From IMG/VR virus record IMGVR_UViG_3300030060_004225, positions 1-31,446 of that record: DNA of 31,446 bases; one strand, 5' to 3'. This document shows, piece after piece, positions 2,484 through 27,110 of the stretch; positions within the stretch are counted from its first letter, which is position 1; each line of letters begins with the position of its first letter. The notes below the pieces were generated by a model that saw only the letters and a program-made list of their open reading frames with translations, made no database searches and was not told the DNA's origin. This DNA is from a virus. A program made the translations under genes and the position numbers.

Positions 2484-2806
2484 TGAGATTTATATTTTTA
2501 ATACTGTTATTTACAATAACTTCTTTAAGTTATGGACAAGATATAACAACAGTTCATTTTAATTACAAATGGAATGTTACAAATGCTTATAGAGGTCTTG
2601 ACAGGTTAAAAAACACAAAGGTGCAGTATGCTTATGTAGAAGATCAATCCGATGTAGTTAAGAAGTCAATAAAATCTGTACCAACTATAATTATATATAA
2701 AAATGGCAGACCAATACATAAATTTGAAGCAGGATTATCAATGGAGATTTTAGTAAGGTTTGATTCAATACAAAAAACAATAAATAAACACAACGAAAAA
2801 AAATAA
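2483..2806 (+). CDS. Secreted thioredoxin-like fold protein lacking both active-site cysteines
   Basis: This 107-residue protein starts with a clear signal peptide (about residues 1-18; hydrophobic core, then SYG/QD, a cleavage context usual in Bacteroidota). The mature part reads like a compact thioredoxin fold: a strand ending FNYKW, helix, strand, then the cis-Pro segment SVPTIIIYKNG and a final GLSMEIL helix start. Aligned by eye to FWAEWCGPCK of thioredoxin, the CGPC motif is NVTN (Asn31 and Asn34), and no cysteine remains in the protein. It therefore cannot perform dithiol-disulfide chemistry. A binding or structural role in the periplasm or on the virion, or a role in lysis, is possible. 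It is translationally coupled to the membrane protein upstream. Confidence 0.8.
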   Translation: MRFIFLILLFTITSLSYGQDITTVHFNYKWNVTNAYRGLDRLKNTKVQYAYVEDQSDVVKKSIKSVPTIIIYKNGRPIHKFEAGLSMEILVRFDSIQKTINKHNEKK

Positions 2807-2811
2807 AAAAC

Positions 2812-2916
2812 ATGGCAAAAATTTTTGAATATTTAGCACAAAAAATTAGAAACTTCAACCTTTGGTTTTCTACTGGTTGGAATAAAATCATCAAAAAATT
2901 ATTAATCAAAATTTAA
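2812..2916 (+). CDS. Tiny Trp-containing cationic peptide, 34 aa
   Basis: The frame MAKIFEYLAQK... ends in KKLLIKI and has 34 residues. It begins 5 bp after the preceding stop with an A-rich upstream sequence, which is how genes without Shine-Dalgarno sequences start here. It is amphipathic and positively charged with two Trp residues. A second short Trp-rich gene lies at 28935, flanking the same fibre block. The function is unknown; a membrane-active or minor virion peptide is possible. It could also be non-coding, because the frame is very short. Confidence 0.5.
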   Translation: MAKIFEYLAQKIRNFNLWFSTGWNKIIKKLLIKI

Positions 2917-2917
2917 T

Positions 2918-2925
2918 TATATTTG
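2918..2925 (+). promoter_or_regulatory. Bacteroidota -7 promoter element TATATTTG, leader about 19 nt
   Basis: TATATTTG fits TAnnTTTG exactly and lies 19 nt before the major tail protein start. No convincing -33 TTG is seen at the usual 17-23 nt spacing. The leader is A-rich. Confidence 0.6.
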
Positions 2926-2944
2926 TAATATAAAAATTTAAGAT

Positions 2945-3367
2945 ATGGCTTCAACAGTTTTCAATGGTAGCAACCTTTTAATAAAAGTAGCAGATGATGG
3001 TTCAAGTCCAACTACAATCGGACATTCTACATCATGTACTATTTCATTTACTAACGACATGGCAGATGCCACTACAAAAGATTCATCAGGTTTTTCAGAA
3101 GTGATTGCAGGTTTAAGATCTGCAGAAATTTCTTTTGATGGTCTAATTGATTACACAGATGGTTCAAGTGGTGGTGCTGAAATTGCACACAAACTTTTAA
3201 CAAGACAGAAATGTGATTTTTCTTTCGGTACTGCTGCCACGGGGGACACTATTTACACAGGAGAGGGTTTTATTTCCTCGTGTGAAATAAGTGGTTCTAT
3301 GGAAGAAGCAGTTACCTATTCAGGAACAATCACAGTTACAGGTGCAATCACAGAATCAGTAAATTAA
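2945..3367 (+). CDS. Major tail tube protein
   Basis: This 140-residue protein resembles tail-tube proteins of the TP901-1/lambda gpV type. The N-terminal NGSNLLIKV...IGHSTSCTISF pattern, the central SAEISFDGL strand and the C-terminal GSMEEAVTYSGTITVTGAI strand are the usual beta-sandwich signatures. It directly precedes the frameshifted chaperone pair and tape measure, the canonical order for siphovirus tails. It has its own -7 element at 2918, fitting high late expression. The ring-forming tube role is inferred from the family and gene order. Confidence 0.85.
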   Translation: MASTVFNGSNLLIKVADDGSSPTTIGHSTSCTISFTNDMADATTKDSSGFSEVIAGLRSAEISFDGLIDYTDGSSGGAEIAHKLLTRQKCDFSFGTAATGDTIYTGEGFISSCEISGSMEEAVTYSGTITVTGAITESVN

Positions 3368-4123: not shown

Positions 4124-6004
4124 ATGGCAGACCAAAATTTTAGATTACTTTTTGAATTTATTGCAAAAACTGCAAAATTTAATCAAGATATTAATAATGC
4201 TCGTGGTAAAATAAAAAAATTTACTACTGATATGACCAAATTTGGTCGTACAATGTCCACAAGAGTTTCACTACCACTTGCAGCAGTTGGTACCTTGGCT
4301 TTAAGACAAGCAGCTAAATTTGAAAGATTAAGAGTTACATTAAATACACTTACTGGTTCTGCTGATGCAGGTGCTGAATCTTTTCAGAGATTAGTACAAT
4401 TTAGTGCAGAAACACCTTTACAATTAGAGGAACTTACAAGAGTAAACAATATGTTAATGGGATTTGGGCAATCAAGTGATGATGCTTTCAAATCTCTAAA
4501 AATGCTTGGTGATGTATCTGCTATAACAGGTGGTAATCTTACAGGTATTGCAGTAGCATTTGGTCAAGCAGCAGCAGAAGGCCGTGTGATGACAAGAGAC
4601 TTAAGGCAATTTATAAATAATGGTGTACCTATATTACAACTGCTTTCTGAAGAAATGGGTGTTGCAGAGGGTAAAATAATGGATTTAGCTTCAGAGGGTA
4701 AACTAACATTTGACATCTTAAATACTGCATTTGAAAAAGCAACAAGTGAAGGTGGTCGTTTTAATGATGGTCTTAAAATACTTTCGCAAACATTAGAGGG
4801 TTTATTTAGTACATTAAAAGATAATATTAATATAGCACTTGCAAGATTAGGTGAAGAAATTGCTGAAACATTAAATTTAAAAGATGGTATTCCTGCACTT
4901 TCAAAAAAAATAGGTCAATTAGTTAATGATTTTGAAAATCTTGATGGCAGCACACAAAAGATTATAATGGGTTTAACTGCATTTACAATAGCTGCAGGAC
5001 CTTTACTTTTATTTTTTGGTGCTTTAGCTGCTGCTGCAACTGCAATAACAACTGCAGTATCAGCTACAACTGTAGCTATTATTGCTTTAAGTTCTGCATT
5101 AGCAGGATTTGCAATATTTAGTTCTTCAAAAGGTGTATCAGGAAATATGGGACTTTTTGAAGGTACAAGTTTAGATCCTATAAAATTAAGTGAAACTAAT
5201 AAAGAACTTCAATTATTACAAAACAATATAGATGCAATAGGTAAACAAGGTTTTATTGGACCGTTAGGTAAAAATCAAAATAGATTACCTTTTTCTTTAG
5301 TACAACCACCTGGCACTTTTAGTACACCTAATACAGATGATACAAAAACCGAATTTGATGGATTATCTGAATCTGCTACAAATTTACATCAAGCAATATT
5401 TGGTATGATAGAATCTGCAGGTGTTGGTATAAATACAGTAGTAAGACCTGCACTTTCTACATTAAGTCCAATAATAACAACAACAACAAGTGCATTTCAA
5501 GATTTAAATTCACAAGCAATAAAACCTTTAGTTGAAGATTTTAAGACATTTGGAGAACAAATAATACCACAAATCGGTGTTGCATTACAAGAGGGATTTG
5601 CTGCTATTGCAGATGGTGAAAACCCATTAAAAAGATTAGGAACAATATTAAAAGCTTTAGTTACAAGATTACTTGCAGCAGCAGCAGCAGCTATGCTACT
5701 TGGTGCATTTTTGGGTGGTGCAGGTGGTGGTTCTAAAATACTTACAAGAATCGGTGGTATAAAAGGGTTATTTACTCAATTCTCTGGTATAGAGTTAGCA
5801 AGAGGTGGAATAGTATCAAGCCCAACAACTGCTCTTATTGGAGAATATCCTGGTGCAAGATCTAATCCTGAAGTAGTCGCACCATTAAGTAAATTAAAAA
5901 CAATGTTAGGTGGTGGTGCTATGCAGGGTGAGTTTGTGTTAAGAGGACAAGATTTAGTTGTAGCTTTACAAAGAGCAGAAAGAAATAGAAATAGATTTAA
6001 ATAA
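4124..6004 (+). CDS. Tail tape measure protein
   Basis: This 626-residue protein has the TP901-type tape-measure domain in its first 250 residues (RVSLPLAAVGTLALRQAAKF; TLTGSADAGAESFQRLVQFS; SAITGGNLTGIAVAFGQAAAEGRVMTRDL). Hydrophobic segments lie near residues 285-335 and 515-540, and a C-terminal ARGGIVSSPTTALIGE...EVVAPL motif is typical of tape measures ending near the tail tip. At about 0.15 nm per residue it predicts a tail of roughly 90-95 nm. No peptidase or lysozyme domain is evident. Its stop overlaps the next start (TAATG). Confidence 0.93.
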   Translation: MADQNFRLLFEFIAKTAKFNQDINNARGKIKKFTTDMTKFGRTMSTRVSLPLAAVGTLALRQAAKFERLRVTLNTLTGSADAGAESFQRLVQFSAETPLQLEELTRVNNMLMGFGQSSDDAFKSLKMLGDVSAITGGNLTGIAVAFGQAAAEGRVMTRDLRQFINNGVPILQLLSEEMGVAEGKIMDLASEGKLTFDILNTAFEKATSEGGRFNDGLKILSQTLEGLFSTLKDNINIALARLGEEIAETLNLKDGIPALSKKIGQLVNDFENLDGSTQKIIMGLTAFTIAAGPLLLFFGALAAAATAITTAVSATTVAIIALSSALAGFAIFSSSKGVSGNMGLFEGTSLDPIKLSETNKELQLLQNNIDAIGKQGFIGPLGKNQNRLPFSLVQPPGTFSTPNTDDTKTEFDGLSESATNLHQAIFGMIESAGVGINTVVRPALSTLSPIITTTTSAFQDLNSQAIKPLVEDFKTFGEQIIPQIGVALQEGFAAIADGENPLKRLGTILKALVTRLLAAAAAAMLLGAFLGGAGGGSKILTRIGGIKGLFTQFSGIELARGGIVSSPTTALIGEYPGARSNPEVVAPLSKLKTMLGGGAMQGEFVLRGQDLVVALQRAERNRNRFK

Positions 6005-12497: not shown

Positions 12498-12501
12498 TTA
12501 T

Positions 12502-12526
12502 AAGGGGGTTTTTACCCCCTTTTTTA
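12502..12526 (+). terminator. Intrinsic terminator after the SSB-like gene
   Basis: A perfect 8-bp stem AAGGGGGT / ACCCCCTT (12502-12509 and 12514-12521) with a 4-base loop is followed by a T-run. Confidence 0.85.
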
Positions 12527-12536
12527 ATATTTTATT

Positions 12537-12656
12537 ATGAATGAACATATGTTATATAACAATTTAATTGCAAACCTTACAAAGCAATTAGAAGAAAAAG
12601 AATTAGAAATTAAACAATTAAAAGATGAGATTAGAGAACTTAGAAATAAAAAATGA
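12537..12656 (+). CDS. Small coiled-coil protein, 39 aa
   Basis: The frame MNEHMLYNNLIANLTKQLEE... ends ...EIRELRNKK and has 39 residues. From residue 14 on it is a continuous charged helix with Leu/Ile at heptad positions, so it should form a short leucine-zipper-like coiled coil. It begins 11 bp after the terminator and overlaps the exonuclease gene by 32 bp in another frame. No function is recognised. Confidence 0.6.
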   Translation: MNEHMLYNNLIANLTKQLEEKELEIKQLKDEIRELRNKK

Positions 12657-13422
12657 TACTATTGAAGATTATCATGCAAAAAAATCAATATCAGCAAGTA
12701 GTTTAAAATATATTGCAGCTACTTCTGTGTTTCATTACTTAAATAAAAAACCGATAGAACAAACTAAATATATGATTCGAGGTAATGCAGTACACACTAT
12801 TTGTTATGAGGGTGTTGAAGAATTTAAAAAGCAATATTTTGTTTTACCAAAACTTGATCTTCGTAAAAAAGATGATAAAGATTTAAAAACAAAACTATTA
12901 GAAAAAAACAAAGGTAAGGTTCCTTTAGATGAAGAAGAAGATAATATAATAAGAGGAATTTACAAAAATTTCAATGGTAGCGACAAGGTAAAAAAATGGA
13001 CTAATGGAAAAGTAGAAGTTTCTCATTATGGTACTTATCAAGGTATTGATGTAAGGGTGCGACCTGATTGTTTGGGTGATGATTGGATAAGCGATATAAA
13101 AACTTGTCAAGATGCTTCACCTGAAAAATTTAACAGAGAAATTGAAAATCGTAAATATAACTTACAAGCATATTTTTACTGTCTTATGTTAGGAATAGAT
13201 CCCCACAGATTTAGGTTTATAGCTTGTGAAACCAATCACCCTTTTGCAGTAGAAGTTTACAAGTTAGATGATACACACCTTGAAAATGCAGAAATGGATT
13301 TTGAAAGAGCATTTACATTTTGGAAACTATATAAAGAAAAAGGTATTGTTACTGGCTATCAATCACAAGATTTTGATGATGATGGTACAATTATTTTAAA
13401 AGGTTGGAAACGAAGAAAATGA
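12625..13422 (+). CDS. PD-(D/E)XK exonuclease of the RecB/RecE-like family
   Basis: This 265-residue protein starts with ISASSLKYIAATSVFHYL, the N-terminal helix of the phage exonuclease family related to RecE C-terminal nuclease (PDDEXK_12/DUF3799-like). Active-site features follow in order: MIRGNAVHTICYEG (His in motif I), RPD at 146-148, SDIKT with Asp157 and Lys159, and the RecB-type QxxxY at Gln181-Tyr185. It should resect double-stranded DNA ends 5' to 3' to feed the annealing protein. The start at 12625 keeps the conserved N-terminus; it overlaps the coiled-coil gene by 32 bp. It ends in an ATGA overlap with the next gene. Confidence 0.85.
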   Translation: MRLENLEIKNDTIEDYHAKKSISASSLKYIAATSVFHYLNKKPIEQTKYMIRGNAVHTICYEGVEEFKKQYFVLPKLDLRKKDDKDLKTKLLEKNKGKVPLDEEEDNIIRGIYKNFNGSDKVKKWTNGKVEVSHYGTYQGIDVRVRPDCLGDDWISDIKTCQDASPEKFNREIENRKYNLQAYFYCLMLGIDPHRFRFIACETNHPFAVEVYKLDDTHLENAEMDFERAFTFWKLYKEKGIVTGYQSQDFDDDGTIILKGWKRRK

Positions 13423-14090
13423 AAGATTTGAGATTAGTAAAAAAGATTGTAAATGATTATTTTGAAATTAATATATCAGATAAATCACGAAAAAGAGATT
13501 TTGTTGATGCAAGAAGATTTTACTATACACTTTCAAGAGAAATCGTAAAAAATGCAACACTTACAAAAATTGGTGAACTTGTAAAAAAAGATCATGCTTC
13601 TGTAAATTTTGGAATCAAAACATTACATTCTTTTATGCAGTATGATAAACACACTCAAAATAATTATTTAACTTTAAAAAAAATATGTTTAAGTAAATTA
13701 GATGAATTGGGAAATCCATTTGAAAAATATTTAAGTAAAGAAGATAAATTGCAGCATTCTGTAATGAATTATTTAAGTTTTGAATATCCAAGTGTTTACG
13801 CAATTCATGTAGCTAATGAGGGCAAAAGAAGTCCATTTGAAAGATTTAAATTTAAATATTTAGGTGGCAAGGCAGGAGTACCTGATATATTAATATTTAG
13901 GTCAAATGGCATAAGAAATGGTCTTGCCATTGAATTAAAAGTTGGATATAATAAACCAACTGATAGTCAAAAAGAATCGTTAGAAAAATTAAGAGAAGAA
14001 AATTGGGAATGTCATTGGACAAATGACTATGATAAAACTATTGAAATTATAGACAAATATTTATCACTACCCAATGATACAAACACTTAA
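13419..14090 (+). CDS. DnaA domain IV-like HTH fused to a VRR-NUC nuclease
   Basis: The start at 13419 overlaps the upstream stop (ATGA), giving 223 residues. Residues about 18-75 match the DnaA C-terminal DNA-binding domain: KSRKRDFVDARRFYYTLSRE, then LTKIGELVKKDHASVNFGIK, where DHASV (59-63 region) corresponds to the DnaA signature that contacts DnaA boxes. Residues about 112-215 form a VRR-NUC fold of the PD-(D/E)XK superfamily: HVANEGKRS, GVPD (Asp156), IELK (Glu172, Lys174) and a Gln-containing helix PTDSQKESLEKL. No AAA+ ATPase domain is present. The fusion suggests a nuclease steered to DnaA-box-like DNA or to the phage origin. Both domain calls are by motif; the joint role is inferred. 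Confidence 0.82.
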   Translation: MKDLRLVKKIVNDYFEINISDKSRKRDFVDARRFYYTLSREIVKNATLTKIGELVKKDHASVNFGIKTLHSFMQYDKHTQNNYLTLKKICLSKLDELGNPFEKYLSKEDKLQHSVMNYLSFEYPSVYAIHVANEGKRSPFERFKFKYLGGKAGVPDILIFRSNGIRNGLAIELKVGYNKPTDSQKESLEKLREENWECHWTNDYDKTIEIIDKYLSLPNDTNT

Positions 14091-23518: not shown

Positions 23519-24724
23519 ATGAACGATGAAATCAAAAAAGAATTAGACCAAATCGGAGATTTAGTTGATTCTAAAATTGAAAAAGCAATGAATGCTGCTC
23601 AAGATAATGCGAAAGGTGAAGTAGAAGAATCACTTAAAAGTGAGATTTCTAACTTATCTAACGACTATATTGAAAAGCACGATGCTATGCAAAAAAGAAT
23701 GGACACTATTGAAATTGAAGCTAAAAAAAATGCTATTGATAGTGTGCCAATGACATTCAAAGGTGCTTTAAAAGAAGCAGTTGATGGTGGTGCTATTGAG
23801 GACTTTAAAAAAGGAAGATCAAGAGCAACTTCATTTGAAGTAAAAGCCGATATGACAACTGGTGCAGATTTTACAGGAGAAGTAATTGCTGCAACAAGAG
23901 TACCTGGTATTAAGTTTGATCCATCAAACGAAGTCCATGTAAGGTCAATAGTACCTGTTGGTACTACAACTTCTGATACAATTAGATTTGTAAAAGAGAG
24001 TGCATATACAGATGGTAATGCAGCTACATCAGAGGGAAGTGCTTTAGGACAAACTGACTTTAACTTAACTGCATCTACTGCTAATGTAGAGTTAATTGGA
24101 ACTTATTTAAGATTATCTAAGCAAATGTTAGATGACACAGAGCAACTAACATCTTATATATCTGCAAGAGTACCAAGTAAATTAATGGCAGTTGAAGATG
24201 ACCAGTTATTAGGTGGTAATGGTGTTGCACCAAATTTAGAGGGATTAAGAAATTCAGCTACTGCATGGAGTAACACAGATTCAGGTTTTGCTGCAGGTGT
24301 AATTTCTAACCCACAAAACATTGATGTATTAATTACTGCACTAAATCAAATTGCTAAGTTTAACTATACATCAGATGGGATTTTAATGCACCCAACTGAT
24401 TTCCACAAAATCTTAGCACTTAAAGATGGTGATAACAGATATTTAAAAGACCAAGTATATCAAGGCCTGCAACCTACATTTATGGGAGTACCATTTAGAT
24501 TATCAACTGCTATGGCAGAGGGTGAATTTATTGTAGGAAACTTTAGCCAAGCAGCACAGATTTGGCAAAGAGATAATGTAAGTGTAGAGTTCTTTGAGCA
24601 AGATTCAGACAATGTTCAAAAGAACTTTATTACAGTTAGAGTTCAAGAAAGATTGGCTATGACTACTTACTTACCAAATGCACTATGTAGAGGATCATTC
24701 GCAACTGTGATTGCTGCTCTATAA
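23519..24724 (+). CDS. Major capsid protein, HK97 fold
   Basis: This 401-residue protein has an N-terminal coiled-coil delta domain (about 1-95, EIKKELDQIGDLVDSKIEKAMNA...) expected to be removed by the protease. The HK97 core follows: TGADFTGEVIAATRVPGIKF, VRSIVPVGTTTSDTIRFVKES, VELIGTYLRLSKQMLDDTEQLTSYI, LLGGNGVAPNLEGLRN and ILMHPTDFHKILALKD, with a typical C-terminal FITVRVQERLAMTTYLPNA. Placement after the protease and a strong terminator downstream match an abundant structural transcript. Confidence 0.95.
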   Translation: MNDEIKKELDQIGDLVDSKIEKAMNAAQDNAKGEVEESLKSEISNLSNDYIEKHDAMQKRMDTIEIEAKKNAIDSVPMTFKGALKEAVDGGAIEDFKKGRSRATSFEVKADMTTGADFTGEVIAATRVPGIKFDPSNEVHVRSIVPVGTTTSDTIRFVKESAYTDGNAATSEGSALGQTDFNLTASTANVELIGTYLRLSKQMLDDTEQLTSYISARVPSKLMAVEDDQLLGGNGVAPNLEGLRNSATAWSNTDSGFAAGVISNPQNIDVLITALNQIAKFNYTSDGILMHPTDFHKILALKDGDNRYLKDQVYQGLQPTFMGVPFRLSTAMAEGEFIVGNFSQAAQIWQRDNVSVEFFEQDSDNVQKNFITVRVQERLAMTTYLPNALCRGSFATVIAAL

Positions 24725-24743: not shown

Positions 24744-24770
24744 AAAGGGGGTTTCGTACCCCCTTTTTTT
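24744..24770 (+). terminator. Strong intrinsic terminator after the major capsid gene
   Basis: A perfect 9-bp stem AAAGGGGGT / ACCCCCTTT (24744-24752, 24758-24766) with a 5-base loop is followed by a T-run. A second, weaker hairpin (ATAATCA/TGATTAT, 24721-24738) lies just before it, overlapping the stop codon. Confidence 0.9.
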
Positions 24771-24780
24771 ATGTTTTATA

Positions 24781-24798
24781 TATAAGAAATATCTTATA
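24781..24798. promoter_or_regulatory. 18-bp palindrome, possible operator of the accessory block
   Basis: The sequence TATAAGA-AATA-TCTTATA is a perfect inverted repeat with 7-bp arms, lying 11 bp upstream of the -33 element of the promoter at 24810-24840. It is unlike the 26-nt elements elsewhere. Confidence 0.45.
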
Positions 24799-24809
24799 AT
24801 AAAAAAAAT

Positions 24810-24840
24810 TTTGTATTATTAAAAAATAATTATACCTTTG
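24810..24840 (+). promoter_or_regulatory. Full consensus promoter TTTG-N19-TACCTTTG of the accessory block
   Basis: TTTG at 24810-24813 and TACCTTTG at 24833-24840 are 19 nt apart, the best promoter in the window. The ATG at 24845 follows after AATT, the 4-nt leaderless spacing. It would drive the accessory genes independently of late control. Confidence 0.8.
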
Positions 24841-24844
24841 AATT

Positions 24845-24949
24845 ATGAAAAAAATTATAACAACAATAGAAAAACTGCAAACACCGATTATACTTTTTGC
24901 TATGATCTATTTTGCATCACACTTTTTAGTATGTCTAATCACCCATTAA
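24845..24949 (+). CDS. Very small membrane protein 1 of the accessory block, 34 aa
   Basis: The frame MKKIITTIEKLQTPIILFAM... has 34 residues, with one hydrophobic helix at about residues 14-32. It is chosen over a TTG-initiated frame at 24838 because its ATG lies exactly 4 nt after the consensus promoter and the TTG would be inside the -7 element. It overlaps the next gene by 19 bp. Small single-pass proteins expressed from their own promoter often act in superinfection exclusion or host takeover, but nothing in the sequence proves that. Confidence 0.65.
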   Translation: MKKIITTIEKLQTPIILFAMIYFASHFLVCLITH

Positions 24950-25092
24950 GTAAAGCAACAAAGAAAGAAATCAATATGCCAGTAGATTATAAATTACAAG
25001 AAAGAATATTAAGATATTTTGTTTGGGGTATGGGTTTTTTTACATTTTGGTCTATATTATTTATTAACTTTTTATTCTGGTTAATAAGATGA
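24931..25092 (+). CDS. Small membrane protein 2 of the accessory block, 53 aa
   Basis: The frame from ATG 24931 encodes a hydrophilic basic N-terminal part (MSNHPLSKATKKEINMPVDY) and a hydrophobic, aromatic-rich segment at about residues 29-52 (FVWGMGFFTFWSILFINFLF core). This indicates a C-terminal membrane anchor with the N-terminus probably in the cytoplasm. Its stop overlaps the next start (ATGA). A longer TTG-initiated form in the same frame would merge it with the region of the preceding gene and is judged artefactual. No family is recognised. Confidence 0.65.
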   Translation: MSNHPLSKATKKEINMPVDYKLQERILRYFVWGMGFFTFWSILFINFLFWLIR

Positions 25093-25235
25093 ATGCAAGA
25101 AAATTGGCACCTAAGATTATGAAGCTTGTTTCTGAAAGTTTAAATAAAGAAACTATTTCAAACGATGTGTATTTTAAAATATTAGGTCATGCATATAATA
25201 TAGAAGAAGAAATAGAAAAGAGTAACGAAAGATAA
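25089..25235 (+). CDS. Small helical protein of the accessory block, 48 aa
   Basis: The frame MNARKLAPKIMKLVSESLNK... overlaps the previous stop by ATGA and ends in a charged helix (YNIEEEIEKSNER). It is soluble by appearance, with mixed charge and no motif. It is the last gene before the terminator at 25280, so the three small genes form one short transcript. Confidence 0.6.
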   Translation: MNARKLAPKIMKLVSESLNKETISNDVYFKILGHAYNIEEEIEKSNER

Positions 25236-25279
25236 TTTTTAGTTAATTAGTTTTTTTTCATATTAATTGGTTTATTTGT

Positions 25280-25311
25280 AAGCCCATTTGTTAGTTCAGA
25301 TGGGCTTTTTA
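25280..25311 (+). terminator. Terminator between the small genes and the nuclease
   Basis: The stem AAGCCCATTTG / CAGATGGGCTT (11 bp, one wobble; 25280-25290 and 25297-25307) with a 6-base loop is followed by TTT. Confidence 0.9.
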
Positions 25312-25320
25312 ACTTTTTCT

Positions 25321-25328
25321 TAACTTTG
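25321..25328 (+). promoter_or_regulatory. -7 element TAACTTTG before the nuclease gene
   Basis: The element lies 5 nt before GTG 25334. The upstream terminator occupies the place of a -33 box. A GTG start at 25328 would share the last base of the element and would precede the predicted transcription start. Confidence 0.6.
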
Positions 25329-25333
25329 TGTTC

Positions 25334-25696
25334 GTGGACAGTAATGCACGAGGTTGTCTTGCCGAATACTTGTTCGGAGTTGAGTGTTTAAAAAGAGGAG
25401 TTATAGTTTCTTTTCCTATTTTAGATTCTTGTGTTTATGATTGCATTGCTGACACAGGAAACAATGTATACAAAATTCAAGTTAAATATTCAGGTAAAGG
25501 TTTTTTAAAACACAGAAAAACAATACAATGTAATTGGCATCAAGCATATTCTTTACAAGATGTAGATTACTTTGCAGTATATATAGAAATGTATAAAGGG
25601 TTTTTTATATTTCCTAACAACGGTGTTAGAAAATGTATTAGAGTTAGTTTAGATAATGTAAATTCAAAATATTTTAATAACTTTGAGTTTAGATAG
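25334..25696 (+). CDS. PD-(D/E)XK nuclease, homing-endonuclease-like
   Basis: The protein has 120 residues from GTG 25334. It shows the small PD-(D/E)XK pattern related to I-Ssp6803I-type homing enzymes (PDDEXK_5-like): GCLAEYLFGVECLKRGVIVSFP with conserved Glu11, then YDCIAD (Asp36) and KIQVKYS with Gln49 and Lys51, the QxK variant of ExK. The C-terminal half contains an aromatic-rich beta region and VDYFAVYIEMYKGFFIFP, as in resolvase-like folds. It has its own promoter and is flanked by terminators on both sides. No intron is seen nearby, so it would be free-standing. An anti-competitor or host-DNA-directed role is an alternative. Confidence 0.75.
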   Translation: MDSNARGCLAEYLFGVECLKRGVIVSFPILDSCVYDCIADTGNNVYKIQVKYSGKGFLKHRKTIQCNWHQAYSLQDVDYFAVYIEMYKGFFIFPNNGVRKCIRVSLDNVNSKYFNNFEFR

Positions 25697-25723
25697 TTTT
25701 TTCTTTCTTTATTCTTTTCTAAT

Positions 25724-25757
25724 AAAAGCACTATAAATTTTATGGTGCTTTTTTTTT
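25724..25757 (+). terminator. Terminator after the nuclease gene
   Basis: A long near-perfect stem AAAAGCACTATA / TATGGTGCTTTT (one wobble) is followed by a T-run to 25757. It closes the accessory block. Confidence 0.9.
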
Positions 25758-25758
25758 G

Positions 25759-25766
25759 TATTTTTG
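25759..25766 (+). promoter_or_regulatory. -7 element TATTTTTG restarting the head-tail operon
   Basis: This exact TAnnTTTG lies right behind the terminator T-run and 15 nt before ATG 25782. It would restart transcription of the connector genes after the accessory block. Confidence 0.55.
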
Positions 25767-25781
25767 TTTTAAATAATAATT

Positions 25782-25892
25782 ATGTTAATAGATATAATAA
25801 GATTTTTTACTTTAAATAATCGTGAGAAAAAAAGTAAAGAAACCAAGGAACTAAAACAAGCATACAGGAGAAATCAAAAAAAATTTAAATAA
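25782..25892 (+). CDS. Small basic protein, 36 aa, upstream of the connector
   Basis: The frame MLIDIIRFFTLNNREKKSKE... has a short hydrophobic N-terminus and a strongly basic C-terminal half (KQAYRRNQKKFK). Its stop overlaps the connector start by TAATG, and it follows a promoter with a 15-nt leader, so it may act mainly as a coupled leader peptide gene. No family is recognised. Confidence 0.55.
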   Translation: MLIDIIRFFTLNNREKKSKETKELKQAYRRNQKKFK

Positions 25893-26437
25893 TGAAATAT
25901 TATAGTAATCCTTTAAATCGTTTTCACACACAAATCAAGATAACTGCTACAACTGGTTCAGAGATCATAAATACTGCTACTGCAAAATCTTATATGAGAG
26001 TTGATACTACTGCTGATGATACTTTGATTGGACAAATGATTACACAAGCAAGGATTATTATTGAAAATTATATTACGAAAGATATTGTTGCAAAAACAAG
26101 AAAATTGTATTTATCAACAGTTGATGAAAGATTTGTTTTGCCATTTTCACCAATAGCTTCTATACAATCAATAACAGTTGATGGTACTGCAACAACTGCA
26201 TATACAGAGTATGGTCTTGATGATACAATTATAGAATTAGAAAGTTTACCTGCCGAAGAAGTCATTGTGAGTTATACGACATCAGGATTGAGTGATAGTT
26301 TTTTAATTCAAGCAAATCTTCAACTTGTATCAACACTCTATGATAATAGAGCAGATTTTGTTGTAGGTAATACAGTTACAAATATACCAACAGATGTTAA
26401 AAGTATTTTAAGTTCACACAAAACAATGTTTATATAA
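25892..26437 (+). CDS. Head-tail connector (adaptor), HK97 gp6-like
   Basis: This 181-residue protein has the gp6/gp15-type helical start ATAKSYMRVDTTADDTLIGQMITQARIIIENYITKDIV followed by a beta-rich domain with LPFSPIASIQSITVDG and a C-terminal helix (SDSFLIQANLQLVSTLYDNRADF). This is the connector ring that docks to the portal. It is followed immediately by the stopper gene with a stop/start overlap (TAATG), the usual head-completion order. Confidence 0.87.
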   Translation: MKYYSNPLNRFHTQIKITATTGSEIINTATAKSYMRVDTTADDTLIGQMITQARIIIENYITKDIVAKTRKLYLSTVDERFVLPFSPIASIQSITVDGTATTAYTEYGLDDTIIELESLPAEEVIVSYTTSGLSDSFLIQANLQLVSTLYDNRADFVVGNTVTNIPTDVKSILSSHKTMFI

Positions 26438-26763
26438 TGAACCCTGGTAAATTAGACAAAAGAGTTTTGATAAAAAGACAAAGTAAAACTGCCGATGGTT
26501 TTGGTGGTTTTTCATCTACACTTGCAACACAAACTACAATATGGGCAAATGTTAATTATACTGATGGAAATATAACTATAAAAAATGGAAAAAGAGATAG
26601 GAACTTAGTTATTGAATTGATTGTAAGAAAAAAAACTGCTGACAATATTGCGACAACAGATTTACTTGAAATAGAAAATGTAAGTGGACAATTTCAAATA
26701 AACAGTATGTTTGATAGTAATTATAAATATTTTACAACAATAACTGCTACAAAAAGAGAGTAA
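26437..26763 (+). CDS. Head closure (stopper) protein, SPP1 gp16-like
   Basis: This 108-residue protein opens MNPGKLDKRVLIKRQSKTADGFGGFSST, the diagnostic start of the phage head-tail joining family. Beta strands follow (TTIWANVNY, RNLVIELIVRKK, FQINSMF). It seals the connector after packaging and joins the tail. Its stop overlaps the next start by TAATG. Confidence 0.88.
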   Translation: MNPGKLDKRVLIKRQSKTADGFGGFSSTLATQTTIWANVNYTDGNITIKNGKRDRNLVIELIVRKKTADNIATTDLLEIENVSGQFQINSMFDSNYKYFTTITATKRE

Positions 26764-27110
26764 TGGAAATAAAAATAAATCAATCTGATCTTCGTAAAGT
26801 AAATAGGTTATTTGATAAACTTGAAGATATTTCTGAAAAACAAGCTAATATTATTATTGATAAAAATGGTTTGAGTATTGTTAGACAAATAAAACAACCA
26901 CCAATACCAGTAGATACTGGTAATTTAAGAAACAATGTAGTTTACAATGCAAACGAAAAAGCAATAGAATCAAAAGCACCCTATTCAGGTTTTCTTGAAT
27001 TTGGTACAAAGTTTCAAAAGGCACAACCTTATTTCTTTAGTAAAATAAATATTGGTTTGAAAAAATTAGTTTTAGATTTAAATAATGCGATTACAAGGGC
27101 TTTAAGATGA
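26763..27110 (+). CDS. Tail-completion/neck protein, HK97 gp10-like
   Basis: This 115-residue protein has the gp10 signature PPIPVDTGNLRNNVVY followed by APYSGFLEFGTKFQKAQPYF, where the PVDTGxLR and (Y)xxFLEFGT motifs define the family. The N-terminal helix is charged. It overlaps the next gene by an ATGA. It acts at the head-tail interface or as a tail-completion factor; its exact role in the family is still debated. Confidence 0.9.
   Translation: MEIKINQSDLRKVNRLFDKLEDISEKQANIIIDKNGLSIVRQIKQPPIPVDTGNLRNNVVYNANEKAIESKAPYSGFLEFGTKFQKAQPYFFSKINIGLKKLVLDLNNAITRALR

Follow-up and report, generated by a model that had tools for sequence, protein, structure and literature searches.

A conserved locus for an I-Ssp6803I-like nuclease gene between the capsid and connector genes of uncultured marine phages

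Between the major capsid and head-tail connector genes of an uncultured marine phage lies a terminator-bounded block of small genes, one of which encodes a PD-(D/E)XK nuclease that is present at this place throughout the lineage and whose alleles have been exchanged independently of both neighbours. From the sequence comparisons described below, we give an even chance to the reading that this is a permanent site for a homing-type endonuclease, free-standing and fixed in the lineage, whose alleles compete during co-infection.

Genome and gene block

The window, i.e. the whole stretch of DNA analysed (IMG/VR record IMGVR_UViG_3300030060_004225; 31,446 nt), is a complete small phage genome whose first and last 91 bases are identical. 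It contains genes for terminase, portal, protease, capsid, connector, tape measure, a peptidase-M15 endolysin and replication proteins, and also encodes a VRR-NUC protein (13404–14090). Its close relatives are all metagenomic contigs in IMG/VR, with no close relative among cultured phages (best identity about 31% for the capsid and about 30% for the nuclease), and the family is an uncultured, marine one of Bacteroidota type. One scan of genome contigs for prophages and hosts returned a single contig, in a Woesearchaeota MAG; this contig (L174, PBPJ01000031.1) is a phage of the family with the order capsid-nuclease-connector kept, and is probably mis-binned.

The features of the block and its two flanking genes, in the order in which they lie, are:

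23519..24724, + strand: major capsid protein (left flank; PF05065)
24744..24766, + strand: terminator 1, behind the major capsid gene (hairpin scan; kept in 76/77 relatives)
24810..24840, + strand: Bacteroidota-type promoter TTTG-N19-TACCTTTG, with 4 nt between the end of its -7 box and the ATG of TM1; mRNA predicted to be leaderless
24845..24949, + strand: TM1, predicted single-pass membrane protein of 34 aa (hydropathy)
24931..25092, + strand: TM2, predicted membrane protein of 53 aa (hydropathy), with the conserved core ...INMPVD..LQ.RI.KY..WG..
25089..25235, + strand: predicted helical soluble protein of 48 aa
25280..25307, + strand: terminator 2, followed directly by the nuclease promoter box (hairpin scan; 70/77 relatives)
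25321..25328, + strand: -7 box TAACTTTG in the promoter of the nuclease gene, with 5 nt between box and start codon; mRNA predicted to be leaderless
25334..25696, + strand: PD-(D/E)XK nuclease of 120 aa, GTG start, catalytic E11, D36 and Q49-x-K51
25724..25752, + strand: terminator 3, behind the nuclease (hairpin scan; kept in 77/77 relatives)
25759..25766, + strand: -7 box TATTTTTG for restart of the late operon, directly behind terminator 3
25782..25892, + strand: basic protein of 36 aa (...KETKELKQAYRRNQKKFK), overlapping the connector start
25892..26437, + strand: head-tail connector (right flank; PF05135)

The hairpin scan found 8 terminator-like hairpins in 11.4 kb, compared with 3.1 in shuffles. 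Across 77 non-identical relatives, a hairpin followed by a T-run was detected behind the capsid gene in 76, ahead of the nuclease in 70 (by a stricter scan, which missed the window's own copy) and behind the nuclease in 77, with none in shuffles; the positions of these junctions are conserved, and the sequences of the stems differ. The terminators placed at 24744, 25280 and 25724 in a preliminary description of this DNA were thereby confirmed as hairpins, and its independent promoter-gene-terminator units are borne out as predicted units conserved in the relatives. Its "strong" terminators and "best" promoter are present as elements, the superlatives being statements about consensus. The three terminator/promoter junctions would keep transcription of the block apart from that of the capsid and connector genes. 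An "18-bp palindrome" (24781–24798), also described there and considered here as an operator, contains one mismatched pair and was rejected, as such palindromes are no commoner in the window (9) than expected by chance (9.6 in shuffles). The capsid terminator (GGGGG/CCCCC) has a second copy, 80% identical, behind an early gene of the window (12498–12556).

The nuclease

The PD-(D/E)XK assignment made in the preliminary description was upheld by a match to PF11645 (E 1.5e-13; 51.4 bits, curated cut-off 26.1), and the start codon is probably the GTG at 25334, not 25328. Residues E11, D36, Q49 and K51 were invariant in 32 and in 52 nuclease sequences. Searching the PDB with the 32-sequence profile gave I-Ssp6803I as the only match (E 1.5e-9), and Foldseek, using an AlphaFold model of the nuclease (pLDDT 90), returned I-Ssp6803I for all of the top four hits (TM about 0.8), followed by archaeal Hjc Holliday junction resolvases. 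PADLOC labelled the protein "homing endonuclease" (E 1.9e-4), and NCBIfam gave no match. Judged by profile and model, the nuclease is predicted to share its fold and active-site residues with the homing endonuclease I-Ssp6803I (PDB 2ost, PF11645), to which it is similar in size and with which G7, D36 and Q49-x-K51 align. The resemblance to the Hjc resolvases is weaker: the PDB profile search gave no significant Hjc sequence match, and the nuclease has QxK instead of ExK, the usual Hjc motif.

The gene for I-Ssp6803I lies within a group I intron of a cyanobacterial tRNA-fMet gene (PMC1995217), whereas the phage nuclease gene is free-standing between structural genes and has its own predicted promoter and terminators. 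The candidate of a group I intron-encoded endonuclease was rejected, as no intron or tRNA was found near the block; at the gathering threshold, Rfam gave no match in the window, and the block has only two sub-threshold sRNA matches. Distant homologues of the nuclease in the T5-like phages My1 and River4 lie inside tRNA arrays, as does the free-standing SegB of T4 (PMC2988022).

The most variable stretch of the protein, residues 53–77 (mean entropy 2.0 vs 1.26 bits), lies just past the catalytic QxK and may contact DNA. The gene is under purifying selection (median dN/dS 0.21; connector 0.18).

A fixed site with exchanged alleles

Searches with capsid, connector and nuclease profiles placed the nuclease between capsid and connector in 129 of 129 loci holding both; some of these are the same contig fetched twice, and those with all five marker genes comprise 77 non-identical intervals. 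The nuclease is also present in 61 of 61 further loci around a distant capsid clade, and no empty nuclease site was seen among the 129 and 61 loci of the window's lineage. Since the nuclease is not optional in this lineage, the "acquired moron" of the preliminary description does not hold in the strict sense: the block has its own promoter and terminator (as predicted elements), as a moron has, but absence from some close relatives, also typical of a moron, applies to some small ORFs between capsid and nuclease and not to the nuclease itself.

In L085 and L121, the DNA flanking the nuclease gene is ~97–100% identical and the nucleases are 55% identical, with similarity falling at the GTG start and returning in the last ~20 codons. 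The pair L089/L142 shows the same pattern, and the proteins of L006 and L019 share 97% (capsid), 100% (connector) and 63% (nuclease) identity. The converse is found in L039/L045 and L007/L046, where nucleases 94–95% identical are bordered by flanks that diverge at the ORF ends. Over 58 pairs of this latter kind, which are not independent of each other, mean identity drops from about 0.8–0.9 to 0.36 at the stop codon. AU tests rejected the tree of each flanking gene for the nuclease data; in the other direction, the data of every flanking gene rejected the nuclease tree. Among complete relatives, identity of the nuclease to that of the window is 51–62%, whether the neighbouring genes are 95% or 60% identical; outside this band are the nearest relative (87%), one genome at 68% and the deepest genomes (38–40%). 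The invariance and co-evolution of the gene set that the preliminary description had named as evidence against cargo are thus found in part: invariance holds for the presence of the nuclease only (129/129 and 61/61), and co-evolution does not, the alleles being exchanged independently of both flanks.

In whole-genome comparison, few genes other than those of the tail/host-recognition region vary as much as the nuclease. Other genes have also been swapped, including the capsid gene in G020, the region 26763–27110 in G009 and G010, a holin-like gene and tail genes; mosaicism is therefore general, and the nuclease is an extreme, not a unique, case. In L085, L088, L090 and L121, the major capsid gene (23519–24724 in the window) is replaced by a ~53%-identical version, while the protease and connector remain 83–90% identical to those of the window.

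Two of the properties expected of homing relate to these exchanges. i) Transfer independent of the genome, with a phylogeny discordant with that of the neighbours, is seen for the nuclease. ii) Co-conversion of flanks is not seen, as the tracts stop at the ORF ends; these are old events only, in which early tracts may have been lost.

A sister lineage with occupied and empty sites

Five contigs (L125, L127, L128, L131 and L132; the three long ones are 33.8–37.6 kb) have the gene for a 55–57% identical nuclease at another place, flanked by a small basic gene and the M15 endolysin gene, and no HK97-type capsid gene could be recognized in these five records. Sixteen further loci have the same gene order without the nuclease at that place, and comparison of L309 with L132 reveals an ORF-sized insertion with no obvious scar. 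Occupied and empty sites thus occur in the sister lineage, but not in that of the window, and on sequence evidence the nuclease appears to be dispensable there. The gene ahead of the sister nuclease is a basic one of KNASRGQ type, no TM1/TM2-like membrane block adjoins, and RusA is encoded in all sister loci whose contig extends far enough. In L131, the nuclease is adjoined by another ORF that is optional (about 200 codons; about 2575–3260).

Small genes of the block

The three tiny genes of the preliminary description, two for membrane proteins and one for a helical protein, are present (34, 53 and 48 aa); their reading frames overlap, and the hydropathy peaks of TM1 and TM2 are 2.3 and 1.9, respectively. 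All the genes listed there were found, but the 36-aa basic gene (25782–25892) in the gap between nuclease and connector had been overlooked. The coding fraction of the block genes is 0.70, compared with 0.17 on the reverse strand.

The variable content between capsid and connector anticipated in that description is present in the small genes, which vary in number and kind, but not in the nuclease and the terminators, which are fixed. The interval between terminator and nuclease contains 2–7 small ORFs, with 1–2 predicted membrane proteins in 48 of 52 relatives, and in distant clades unrelated small membrane proteins take the place of TM1 and TM2 at the same site. L121 has gained an ORF of ~62 codons cleanly between TM1 and TM2, which its near-twin L085 lacks. 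None of the known defence families searched for was matched among the small genes. A protein of ~47 aa with four cysteines, possibly a zinc ribbon, is encoded ahead of the nuclease in 13 of 52 relatives (e.g. L012 7893–8036 and L085 5786–5929) and is not present in the window.

Promoters and predicted leaderless mRNAs

The promoter consensus of Bacteroidota consists of TTTG at -33 and TAnnTTTG at -7 (PMC6847099). TTTG-N19-TACCTTTG is the only match to it on the + strand of the genome, where a reversed control pattern also gives 1. Two-box promoters are enriched in relatives behind the capsid terminator (22/50; 1.8 expected). Enrichment was also found for -7 boxes at two places, immediately ahead of the nuclease (39/50; 7.9 expected) and right behind terminator 3 (49/52; 11.3 expected). 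A promoter of the form TTG-N17-21-TANNTTTR was not enriched behind the nuclease (2/50; 2.6 expected), so that of the late-operon restart promoter previously proposed, the -7 box at 25759 stands, with no enrichment of a matching -33 element. A scan for sigma-70 promoters, which are the wrong type, gave no more than shuffles.

Transcription in Flavobacterium johnsoniae starts 4–5 nt behind the -7 box (PMC6847099). In 32 of the 39 box-bearing relatives, the start codon of the nuclease is located 4–5 nt behind its box, and its mRNA is therefore predicted to be leaderless. In the window and 17 related genomes, 30 start codons lie exactly 4 nt past TAHHTTTG, compared with 0–2 at neighbouring spacings (except 5 at a spacing of 2), and control patterns have no spike at 4 nt. 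These starts belong mainly to the genes for the small terminase, tape measure, protease, a 427-aa protein, a 56-aa membrane protein and the nuclease, each in 6–8 genomes. In the window, the starts at 4124, 9934, 17020, 18124, 22812, 24845 and 25334 are 4 nt (25334: 5 nt) past TAnnTTTG, and such starts also occur in genomes L175–L208. The small terminase probably starts at GTG 18124, not at TTG 18088. Leaderless mRNAs thus appear, from these spacings, to be a standing mode of expression in this phage group beyond the block. Such mRNAs are rare in flavobacterial hosts (5.5%; PMC9723704), which makes the predicted signal an unexpected translation strategy for Bacteroidota.

Possible function of the nuclease locus

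Of the three functions guessed in the preliminary description (exclusion, anti-defence and homing), homing is best supported. We infer that when phages with different alleles co-infect a cell, the late-expressed nuclease would cut the DNA of the other phage at or near the locus. Repair with the cutter's genome as template would then transfer that genome's allele to the cut phage, or else the latter would be lost. Occupancy would be held at 100% because a phage without an allele would be cut and converted, and diversity would be kept because each allele must cut others but not itself. It is more tentatively suggested that the homing-type nuclease has become a fixed inter-phage weapon, with many incompatible alleles at one insulated site, whole-ORF replacement in co-infection leading to both complete occupancy and diverse alleles. 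One might, with similar reserve, liken this contest to that between bacteriocin immunity types, here between virus genomes.

Several known systems resemble parts of this arrangement. The seg and mob genes of T4 are free-standing, segD being located between capsid genes 23 and 24, and SegH and Hef replace mobC and mobE in related phages (PMC2988022); the phage nuclease likewise is free-standing, lies between conserved genes and is replaced by other endonuclease genes. However, the T4 enzymes are of the GIY-YIG or HNH type, sporadic and in several cases promoter-less, whereas the present one is of the PD-(D/E)XK type, fixed in its lineage and isolated by terminators. T4 endonucleases cause marker exclusion of T2 (PMC2988022), and the intron homing endonuclease gp210 of PhiPA3 confers an advantage over co-infecting PhiKZ (PMC11620839). 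The role proposed here, cutting the DNA of a co-infecting relative, is like that of gp210, for which, as an intron-encoded HNH enzyme, competition has been demonstrated, whereas competition in the present case would follow from sequence patterns. Allele exchange associated with homing endonuclease genes is also known in ICP1-like phages (PMC10448857), where, as here, nuclease genes sit at sites of exchange; the exchanged unit there is an island of flanking genes, but here it is the nuclease ORF itself.

Some observations do not fit homing easily. Complete occupancy in the main lineage is unusual, as homing genes tend to be sporadic, and the tracts appear to be limited to the ORF, unlike classical homing with its flank co-conversion. 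Furthermore, since the capsid gene, 26763–27110 and the holin-like gene have been swapped too, exchange needs no nuclease, and passive exchange might require no more than short stretches of homology where the ORF ends are conserved.

The main alternative is that the enzyme is a late housekeeping nuclease needed in this lineage, which would either resolve branches in replicated DNA or trim the ends of packaged DNA at head filling, in the manner of Hjc-type resolvases or head-completion nucleases, its alleles being swapped passively because the protein works alone. We regard this as rather unlikely. Its presence between head genes in all 129 and 61 loci, the purifying selection, the Hjc resolvases as second fold neighbours and the lack of any RusA found in the window's lineage agree with such a function, but the sister nuclease is present or absent with RusA alongside, the VRR-NUC protein of the window could itself resolve junctions, the closest relative of known structure is a homing enzyme with site specificity, and allele identity is almost independent of phage relatedness. 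The narrower proposal that the nuclease is the lineage's only junction resolvase is weakened by the VRR-NUC protein and the sister-lineage RusA. Permanence and purifying selection together argue against a decaying parasite, while ORF-exact replacement, independence of the flanks, the mixture of occupied and empty sister-lineage sites and the relationship to a homing enzyme argue against an ordinary head gene. A homing-type enzyme held at full occupancy by contests in co-infection would reconcile the two, in agreement with marker exclusion by T4 and interference by PhiPA3.

It is improbable that the whole block was acquired as exclusion or anti-defence cargo, with membrane proteins that block superinfection or counter defence and a nuclease directed against host DNA or incoming DNA. 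The two small membrane proteins of the window, and the one or two predicted in most relatives, would suit this function, as would the variable ORFs ahead of the nuclease, the recent gain in L121 and the block's own predicted promoter and terminators; yet the nuclease and terminators are fixed, exchange of the nuclease does not extend to the adjoining membrane genes, and in the sister lineage the nuclease follows the basic gene with no membrane block beside it. That the block is an expression insulator only, setting capsid and connector levels apart with tolerated passengers in between, would explain three junctions conserved in position and not in stem sequence, but is very improbable given the coding fraction and the purifying selection on the nuclease.

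The reading of the block as a permanent locus for competing homing-type alleles bears on how such enzymes are seen. Homing endonucleases are usually viewed as sporadic parasites that invade, become fixed and decay, whereas the homing-type nuclease of this lineage is an intact, constantly present enzyme under purifying selection, with its alleles traded gene for gene. The occupied and empty sites of the sister lineage and the near-twin phages L085 and L121 provide natural experiments, and it thereby becomes testable whether such enzymes turn into permanent weapons between co-infecting viruses.
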